The notes below the pieces were generated by a model. The model was given only the letters and a program-made list of their open reading frames with translations, was not told where the DNA came from and did no database searches. A program made the translations under genes and the position numbers. A stretch of DNA of 64,000 bases from Fodinibius salinus (GTDB lineage: Bacteria; Bacteroidota; Rhodothermia; Balneolales; Balneolaceae). The stretch spans positions 62,001-126,000 of the forward strand of contig NZ_VNHY01000004.1 of the NCBI RefSeq assembly GCF_008124865.1, written 5' to 3'. This document shows, piece by piece, positions 15,281 through 17,056 of this stretch. Numbering within the stretch: position 1 is the first letter of the stretch; every line of letters begins with the position of its first letter.

Positions 15281-15784
15281 TTAACGACCAAAATCGTCCT
15301 GCACGCGCACAATATCATCTTCGTCGGAAGGATTATCTACATCGGTATGCTGCCAAATCTCAGCTAAAATGCCCCAGTTATCTAATCCAATCAACCGGTG
15401 ACGCTCACCCTGCTGGAGCCGTACAAACTCTCCTGTTTCATATTCTTTAACGGGACCTTGCTCATCGGTATCGCTGGTCATGACTCCCACTGGCCCTTCA
15501 AGCACTTTCCAGATTTCGGCCCGGCGGTGGTGATATTGCCACGACAGGCGTTTATCAGGCTGAACCACCAAAATTTTGGGACTTAATTTCCCTGATATTT
15601 TAAGCTCTTCCACATCAATATCACCAAAATAAGTTTTAGCAAACTTAGCAGCTTCACTCTCGTCAATCACGAAAAAACCGCCCCACGGTCGCTCGTAATC
15701 CTGATCGACAATGGTAAACCCATTCTCGGTAATTTGTTTTTTAATCTTTTTGAATAATTTTTTCTTTGATTGATTGGTACTCAT
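15281..15784 (-). CDS. Cupin-fold phosphomannose-isomerase-like protein
   Basis: A 167-residue cytosolic protein resembling small type II phosphomannose isomerase-like cupins. It shows YERPWGGFFVID near residue 25, LSWQYHHRRAEIWKVLEGP with the metal-binding HHRR...E set near 80, and GERHRLIGLDNWG...EIW near 125, the second cupin motif. These proteins isomerise or epimerise sugar phosphates, but this short version lacks the N-terminal nucleotidyltransferase domain of bifunctional enzymes, so the substrate is uncertain. It is convergent with hisA (6-bp gap) and breaks the his gene order. Confidence 0.75.
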   Translation of the reverse strand: MSTNQSKKKLFKKIKKQITENGFTIVDQDYERPWGGFFVIDESEAAKFAKTYFGDIDVEELKISGKLSPKILVVQPDKRLSWQYHHRRAEIWKVLEGPVGVMTSDTDEQGPVKEYETGEFVRLQQGERHRLIGLDNWGILAEIWQHTDVDNPSDEDDIVRVQDDFGR

Positions 15785-16011: not shown

Positions 16012-16049
16012 GCACAAAATAAAAAAGGCTGCGAAATAAATCGCAGCCT
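16012..16049 (-). terminator. Intrinsic terminator of the small cysteine-rich gene
   Basis: Nine-bp perfect arms AGGCTGCGA (16026-16034) and TCGCAGCCT (16041-16049) enclose a 6-nt loop. On the minus strand the hairpin is followed by a T-rich tail (TTTTTTATTTT). It lies 27 bp after the stop of the 30-codon gene read from the right, so it terminates that transcript. Confidence 0.9.
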
Positions 16050-16075
16050 CAAAATCGTTTCAAAGTAATTAACTA

Positions 16076-16168
16076 TTAGTGATCACGTTCACAATCGATC
16101 TTTGGTTCTTTCTGACATGGATCAACTGCTGTTGCTCCGCATTGTGGACATTCAGTTGGTTGTGCCAT
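16076..16168 (-). CDS. Small cysteine-rich (CPxCG) protein, 30 residues
   Basis: A 30-codon frame on the minus strand, starting ATG at 16168 and ending TAA at 16076-16078. It encodes an acidic peptide with four cysteines (7, 10, 18, 26) and a C-terminal histidine. The first pair is CPQCG, a classic zinc-knuckle half, with ECPQCGATAVDPC and then DCERDH. Support for a real gene is the cysteine spacing, the strong terminator 27 bp downstream, and an upstream leader with a 15-bp palindrome (16208-16222). No Shine-Dalgarno site is obvious. I do not recognise the family. A very small zinc- or iron-binding protein is the inference. Confidence 0.65.
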   Translation of the reverse strand: MAQPTECPQCGATAVDPCQKEPKIDCERDH

Positions 16169-16207
16169 AGTGTCTTCGGTTTTTGGATTAACCTTCACTT
16201 CTATTCT

Positions 16208-16222
16208 ACCAAAAAATTTGGT
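16208..16222. promoter_or_regulatory. Palindrome upstream of the small cysteine-rich gene
   Basis: ACCAAAAAATTTGGT has 6-bp perfect arms around an AAA centre and lies about 40 bp upstream of the small gene's ATG, in its probable promoter or leader. It could be an operator. AT-richness makes chance possible. Confidence 0.35.
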
Positions 16223-16276
16223 AATATGATTCCCTTTTGCACAAATTTATATTCAATCTAATTTAAATACATTAAA

Positions 16277-16294: not shown

Positions 16295-17056
16295 ATGCTT
16301 GCAAAACGGATTATCCCCTGCCTCGATATCAAAGACGGACGAACAGTGAAAGGCGTAAATTTTGAAGGACTCCGTGATGCCGGAGACCCCGTAGAGCTGG
16401 CAAAACGTTATTCTGATGAAGGTGCCGACGAGCTGGTGTTTCTCGATATAACGGCCACTAAAGAAAAACGTAAAACGCTGGTCGATCTAGTGAAAAGGAT
16501 TTCAAAAAAAATTAATATTCCCTTTACTGTAGGCGGTGGCATCAACAGTGTTAGCCAAATTGCCGAACTACTGCATGCCGGAGCTGATAAGGTATCGCTA
16601 AATAGCGCAATTGTTCGAAATCCCGATCTTATTAATAAAGCAGCACAACAATTTGGCTCACAATGTATTGTTGCTGCAGTAGATGCCAAGCGAATCGGGA
16701 ATCAGTGGACGGTCTTTATTTCCGGGGGATCTATCAACACCCAAAAAGATGCACTGCAATGGATTAAAGAAGTTCAGCAACGTGGCGCGGGCGAAATACT
16801 GCTTACTAGCATGGATAAAGATGGAACCAAATCCGGTTATGATCTGGAACTTCTTCAAGCAGTAAATGCCTTTGCCCAAGTTCCCGTTATTGCCAGCGGT
16901 GGTGCCGGCACAAAGCAACACTGCATTGAAGCTATTACTGAAGGTAATGCTGATGCTATTCTGGCTGCCAGTATTTTTCACTTCCAAGAGATTGCAATCA
17001 GCGATTTAAAAGGAGAACTTAAGAAAGCTCATATAACAGTAAGAGAAACAACTTAA
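16295..17056 (+). CDS. hisF: Imidazole glycerol phosphate synthase, cyclase subunit
   Basis: A TIM-barrel cyclase that uses ammonia delivered by HisH to turn PRFAR into IGP and AICAR. At 253 residues it is full length. It shows the HisF-specific start [22 protein letters not shown], the second catalytic aspartate in [14 protein letters not shown], and the phosphate loops TVGGGIN and ASGGAG. The start ATG follows the right copy of the 14-bp repeat by 4 bp. hisIE follows after a 73-bp spacer made of inverted and iterated motifs. Confidence 0.97.

Follow-up and report, generated by a model that had tools for sequence, protein, structure and literature searches.

A conserved 30-codon tetracysteine gene of Fodinibius salinus, probably a member of an iron-responsive regulon

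The 64-kb stretch of Fodinibius salinus DNA analyzed here (hereafter the window) contains a 30-codon minus-strand gene that, judged by comparison with its relatives, encodes a real protein. We propose that the locus is probably a stand-alone, monocistronic gene for an acidic tetracysteine protein that belongs to an iron-responsive (Fur/DtxR-type) regulon. The link to iron is drawn because the type of dyad found upstream of this gene also precedes iron genes in the same genomes. The features of the locus are collected in Table 1.

Table 1. Features of the small-gene locus and its neighbors in the window
Feature	Position	Strand	Evidence
Cupin gene, 3' of the terminator	15281..15784	-	PF01050, E 4.7e-11
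Intrinsic terminator of the small gene	16021..16050	-	10-pair stem and T-run; -17.9 kcal/mol; z -6.2
30-codon gene for a tetracysteine protein	16076..16168 (stop codon included)	-	Conservation in 17 genomes; pS 0.70, pN 0.13
Leader box GAAGGTTAAT, conserved	16187..16196	-	Leader alignment
TAGAAT, putative -10 hexamer	16203..16208	-	Leader alignments; -10 assignment putative
Box GGAATCATATTA (conserved in the Fodinibius subgroup), approximately -35 relative to the small gene	16222..16233	-	Leader alignment
Iron-regulon-type dyad, candidate operator, TAAATTAGATTGAATATAAATTT	16243..16265	-	Top match in the 64-kb window to the matrix from other genes
hisF, divergent neighbor	16295..17056	+	PF00977, E 1.2e-83

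Results

Coding evidence for the small gene

The small open reading frame (ORF) begins with an ATG at 16168, ends with a stop codon at 16076-16078, and comprises 30 codons, with MAQPTECPQCGATAVDPCQKEPKIDCERDH as the predicted product of the minus-strand frame 16168-16076. A preliminary description of this DNA had proposed here a hidden 30-codon minus-strand gene with a CPxCG motif and two more cysteines, a proposal borne out by 17 orthologues. All four cysteines are kept in 16 of the 17 genomes, the exception being G030, in which the motif reads CPERG and Cys10 is absent. In the window peptide the CPxCG motif supplies Cys7 and Cys10 and is followed by Cys18, Cys26, and His30, and the cysteine spacing of the 30-residue form is C-x2-C-x7-C-x7-C. 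The final histidine, to which the description had also drawn attention, is present in the window copy but is not conserved, the C-terminal residue of the orthologues elsewhere being aspartate, glutamate, or lysine. The window peptide is acidic, with six Asp/Glu versus three Lys/Arg residues and a net charge of approximately -3, and the residues M1, C7, P8, C10, G11, A14, C18, C26, and R28 are invariant in a 13-sequence alignment. AlphaFold yielded no confident structure for the small protein (pLDDT 61, pTM 0.22).

Among 10 aligned copies of the ORF, pS reached 0.70, with silent sites near saturation, and pN was 0.13; variable columns at codon positions 1, 2, and 3 numbered 13, 5, and 27 of 29, respectively. 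A pS excess was observed in only one of the other five frames, an antisense frame, and is taken as a shadow of the real one. Based on the 17 orthologues, the pS and pN values, and the codon-position bias, we count the small ORF as coding. The frame and the cysteine spacing are kept in relatives while silent sites change, which is the pattern that the preliminary description had named as proof. Loss of the frame with retention of the terminator was to point to a small RNA instead; both are kept in the orthologues, and a non-coding small RNA was rejected on the grounds of the conserved frame and a pN far below pS. A chance ORF over a non-coding RNA has only the short length of the frame in its favor; it is refuted by the codon statistics, the invariant cysteines also speak against it, and we assign it a negligible probability. 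A longer form of 40 amino acids with a GTG start was discarded because relatives have a stop in that frame. Shine-Dalgarno matches of at least 5 nt precede the ORF in 12 of the 17 genomes; the match in the window copy is just 3 nt long.

Terminator of the small gene

The terminator stem at 16050-16025 consists of 10 pairs, nine Watson-Crick and one G-U, with a loop of 6, and is followed by a T-run. The strong hairpin and T-run that had been claimed for this gene were thus confirmed, with a stem of 10 pairs in place of the 9 bp first given and a stop-to-stem gap of 25 nt in place of 27 bp. Its folding energy of -17.9 kcal/mol corresponds to a z of -6.2 against shuffles. A scan of 4.5 kb yielded three terminator-like sites, of which this one is the strongest. 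Terminator-like hairpins are located shortly 3' of the stop codon in all 17 orthologues (four were folded and the remainder judged by eye), their sequences differing and the stem being kept. The terminator is assigned to the small ORF because hisF, on the plus strand, starts on the other side and the cupin gene, on the minus strand, starts beyond the hairpin, in agreement with the earlier statement that it belongs to no other gene.

Distribution and genomic context

A profile search detected the small gene in 17 of 92 Balneolaceae genomes. In the halophilic genus of the window (Fodinibius/Aliifodinibius) it is present in 11 of 12 genomes, and it occurs in a few other genera too (58 relatives searched); the named matches belong to Fodinibius/Aliifodinibius and one other Balneolaceae genome. 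No convincing homologue was found outside the Balneolaceae among 394 genomes of the phylum, where the inspected ones among the weak hits (E 0.003 and worse) proved to be generic CxxCG stretches, and no similar frame was found in the hisF flanks of 12 family genomes that do not have the gene. A plasmid match that would suggest a plasmid origin was not found, and a phage origin was rejected, phage matches reaching E values of 7-9 only and one IMG/VR match spanning just 14 residues.

In 15 of the 17 genomes the small gene resides in the his region, adjoining hisF, hisA, or both and transcribed in the opposite direction. The genes of G004 and G010 are relocated away from the his locus, retain both the dyad and the terminator, and encode a form of 48 residues that has an additional CxxCG unit (loci L096 and L088). 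At these two loci the promoter, ORF, and terminator, the last of differing sequence, seem to travel as one module. Other neighbors recur in part of the set. In several Balneolaceae, the his-region copy of the small gene has a serpin (protease inhibitor) gene beside it (L085, L090, and L092-L095; PF00079 in two), and predicted membrane proteins of approximately 170-230 residues adjoin the small gene in L084, L085, L086, L089, and L090. G021 (L091) has members of this membrane-protein family in tandem, at approximately 230-1750 bases on the downstream side of the gene. An operon partnership with the membrane-protein neighbor was dropped, the two being adjacent in some genomes only.

Comparison with known protein families

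Searches of Pfam, NCBIfam, and PHROGs returned only weak or sub-threshold matches for the small protein. Twelve of 13 members weakly match Phage_zn_bind_8 (PF24623), a putative DNA-binding phage zinc finger with which they share a C-x2-C-G start and a following cysteine, but the scores of 12.9-16.5 bits lie below the 24-bit cut-off and the alignments span only approximately 15-20 residues; the phage and plasmid searches yielded no convincing homologue. The 48-residue two-knuckle copies weakly resemble the ECs_2282 family putative zinc-binding protein (NF047912), at 20.5-21.5 bits against a cut-off of 37 bits, whereas the 30-residue forms do not match it. The CPxCG knuckle is also shared with rubredoxins, rubrerythrins, and zinc ribbons, with short alignments to rubrerythrin; these proteins have two CxxC knuckles, whereas the 30-residue form has one knuckle and two lone cysteines. 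By description alone, the protein can further be likened to the haloarchaeal CPxCG small zinc-finger proteins, which are very small and carry a motif of this type; among them is Brz, described as a zinc-finger regulator of bop in archaea (PMC2253796). Because the curated families match below threshold only, we file the small protein as a new lineage-specific family that may work in outline like a known kind.

The conserved dyad and promoter region

The aligned leaders contain one block that is better conserved than its surroundings, namely the dyad, located 71-82 nt 5' of the ATG in 17 of 17 copies, including the relocated genes of G004 and G010. The dyad does not figure in the preliminary description, yet of all features of the locus it tells the most. 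It lies upstream of the GGAATCAT box and of a TATAnT-like hexamer, which in most relatives occupies the position of the TAGAAT of the window. The small-gene dyads are related to the palindrome TATTTAGATTnAATCTAAATA and are imperfect and consistently asymmetric, the right half being mostly TATAAA rather than TCTAAA; the dyad is clear in 16 of the 17 copies and degenerate in G008, where it ranks third at its locus. Since it is placed 5' of the supposed -35 box, both repression and activation would be possible. Within the Fodinibius subgroup, the boxes GGAATCATATTA and GAAGGTTAAY (16187-16233, minus strand) show unusually strong conservation.

Relative to the hisF start of the window, the dyad is only 30-52 bp upstream, as would suit an element that controls histidine synthesis and in which the small gene has no share. 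However, another gene separates hisF from the dyad in several genomes, and where the small gene stands off the his locus, in two genomes, the dyad is still 71-82 bp from the small gene. These relocated copies largely refute the ownership of the dyad by hisF, which we regard as highly improbable.

The transcript of approximately 190 nt might also act as a dual-function iron-responsive RNA, that is, as a RyhB/FsrA-like base-pairing small RNA and the mRNA of the peptide at once. Its size, the iron-type operator, and the strong terminator suit such RNAs, as does the conservation of the leader boxes GGAATCATATTA and GAAGGTTAAC within the Fodinibius subgroup, but these boxes could be promoter elements and the ORF evolves as a protein. 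Moreover, no conserved leader structure was found (0 pairs), and the sole Rfam match is sub-threshold (suhB, 20.2 bits against 41). We consider a second, base-pairing role of this kind improbable.

The same palindrome upstream of iron genes

A sequence model of the small-gene dyad block was run on nine whole genomes. Besides the small-gene copies, the obtained hits were mainly palindromes of the TATTTAGATTnAATCTAAATA form upstream of other genes, which encode TonB-dependent receptors, FbpA/FbpB-type transporter components (among them an iron-type ABC permease and an FbpA-like binding protein), an FTR1-like protein that includes a cytochrome c domain, an ActA-like multihaem cytochrome, SufB, Nfu, ferredoxin-NADP-reductase-like and protoporphyrinogen-oxidase-like proteins, and a DUF4856 lipoprotein. 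Pfam supports the receptor plug, the transporter permease fold, the solute-binding protein, the cytochromes, Nfu, SufB, the oxidoreductase NAD-binding domain, and DUF4856; the names FbpB, ActA, protoporphyrinogen oxidase, FTR1, and FNR are readings of the sequence for which Pfam gives general families only. The three best sites in G000 are upstream of a ferredoxin-NADP-reductase-like gene, a TonB receptor gene, and the small gene, and in G002, where the small gene is again among the best sites, the other four are upstream of an Fe-type ABC permease gene, the FbpA-like and protoporphyrinogen-oxidase-like genes, and two TonB receptor genes.

In G000, G002, G003, G006, and G009, the symmetric pattern with at most two mismatches was found at 20 places versus 3 for the reversed control; places of the reversed pattern included one ferredoxin among 15 loci, with no clustering of iron genes. 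Scored with a matrix from 28 sites outside the small gene, the small-gene dyad took first rank at 16 of 17 loci and, in the 64-kb window, reached 17.8 versus 9.2 for the next best site. The test is partly circular, since the 28 sites had come from a model built on the small-gene dyad or from a pattern that the hits of this model had suggested. Only the functions of the other genes and the palindromic character of their sites are independent of that dyad. Within this partly circular comparison, the small gene has a candidate operator like the sites of other iron genes at a promoter-compatible distance.

These data also bear on the view that a conserved small zinc-knuckle protein is subject to ordinary or unrelated regulation, the dyad being a promoter-proximal site for a different transcription factor, with only a resemblance to the iron palindrome. 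The CPxCG motif is typical of zinc knuckles, the sub-threshold PF24623 matches point the same way, and the consistent asymmetry of the small-gene dyad would fit another factor; against this, the best genome-wide dyad matches precede iron genes and those of the reversed control do not. We hold such unrelated regulation to be possible, though rather unlikely.

Palindromes 5' of SufB, Nfu, and the divergent FbpA-like/protoporphyrinogen-oxidase-like pair (L158, L159, L162, L168, and L169) outline a candidate iron/Fe-S regulon for Fodinibius. Two palindromes 35 bp apart are present upstream of a TonB-dependent receptor gene in G000 (C4:261552-261606; L115/L123), approximately 8 kb from a DtxR-type regulator gene (G000:C4:269406). 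The genome encodes one Fur (FUR, 101 bits) and one full-length DtxR-type regulator (74 bits). The dyad has a 7-1-7 geometry that we take to fit Fur, and its TTAGATT half-site presumably resembles DtxR sites. Our literature search on an iron motif in Bacteroidetes returned nothing useful, and a description of a Balneolaceae iron-regulon operator was not found in this limited search.

Discussion

In the mechanism that we favor for this putative iron-regulon member, an iron-responsive regulator, either Fur or DtxR-type, would bind the 23-bp dyad immediately 5' of the promoter, and the peptide would be made according to iron status. The direction of control is a guess; we consider induction in iron-poor cells the likelier because many of the other palindrome-bearing genes serve uptake. 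One metal ion, Zn2+ or Fe2+, probably binds to the four cysteines and would give a folded knuckle, and iron appears at least as likely as zinc in view of the iron-type promoter element. During iron adaptation, the knuckle may then act on a partner, either protein or RNA, the choice of partner being again a guess.

In outline, such action would be like that of small Bacillus proteins under Fur control. The FbpA, FbpB, and FbpC proteins of Bacillus subtilis are very small Fur-controlled proteins of the iron-sparing response, described as basic putative RNA chaperones that work with the small RNA FsrA (PMC7430163). Compared by description only, they are the nearest known proteins by role, sharing small size and, should the proposed regulation hold, iron control; the Fodinibius protein, in contrast to these small basic proteins, has 30 residues but is acidic and carries four cysteines.

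A more far-reaching version, which we regard as distinctly unlikely, is that the peptide itself acts as a sensor or carrier of iron, through a mononuclear Fe(Cys)4 or an Fe-S site, and exerts feedback on the iron regulon; it would represent a new acidic tetracysteine family encoded by a compact promoter-ORF-terminator module that in most lineages remains next to the his genes and in others has moved as a unit.

Length cut-offs easily remove proteins of approximately 30 residues, and working out what such proteins do is harder than finding them. For the gene described here, comparative evidence gives proof of coding together with a specific and cheap hypothesis of iron control, the iron-type dyad making an orphan peptide a testable candidate member of an iron regulon. 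A candidate iron-regulon operator for the Balneolaceae was gained as a by-product. The small gene is probably a previously undescribed part of iron management in these bacteria.
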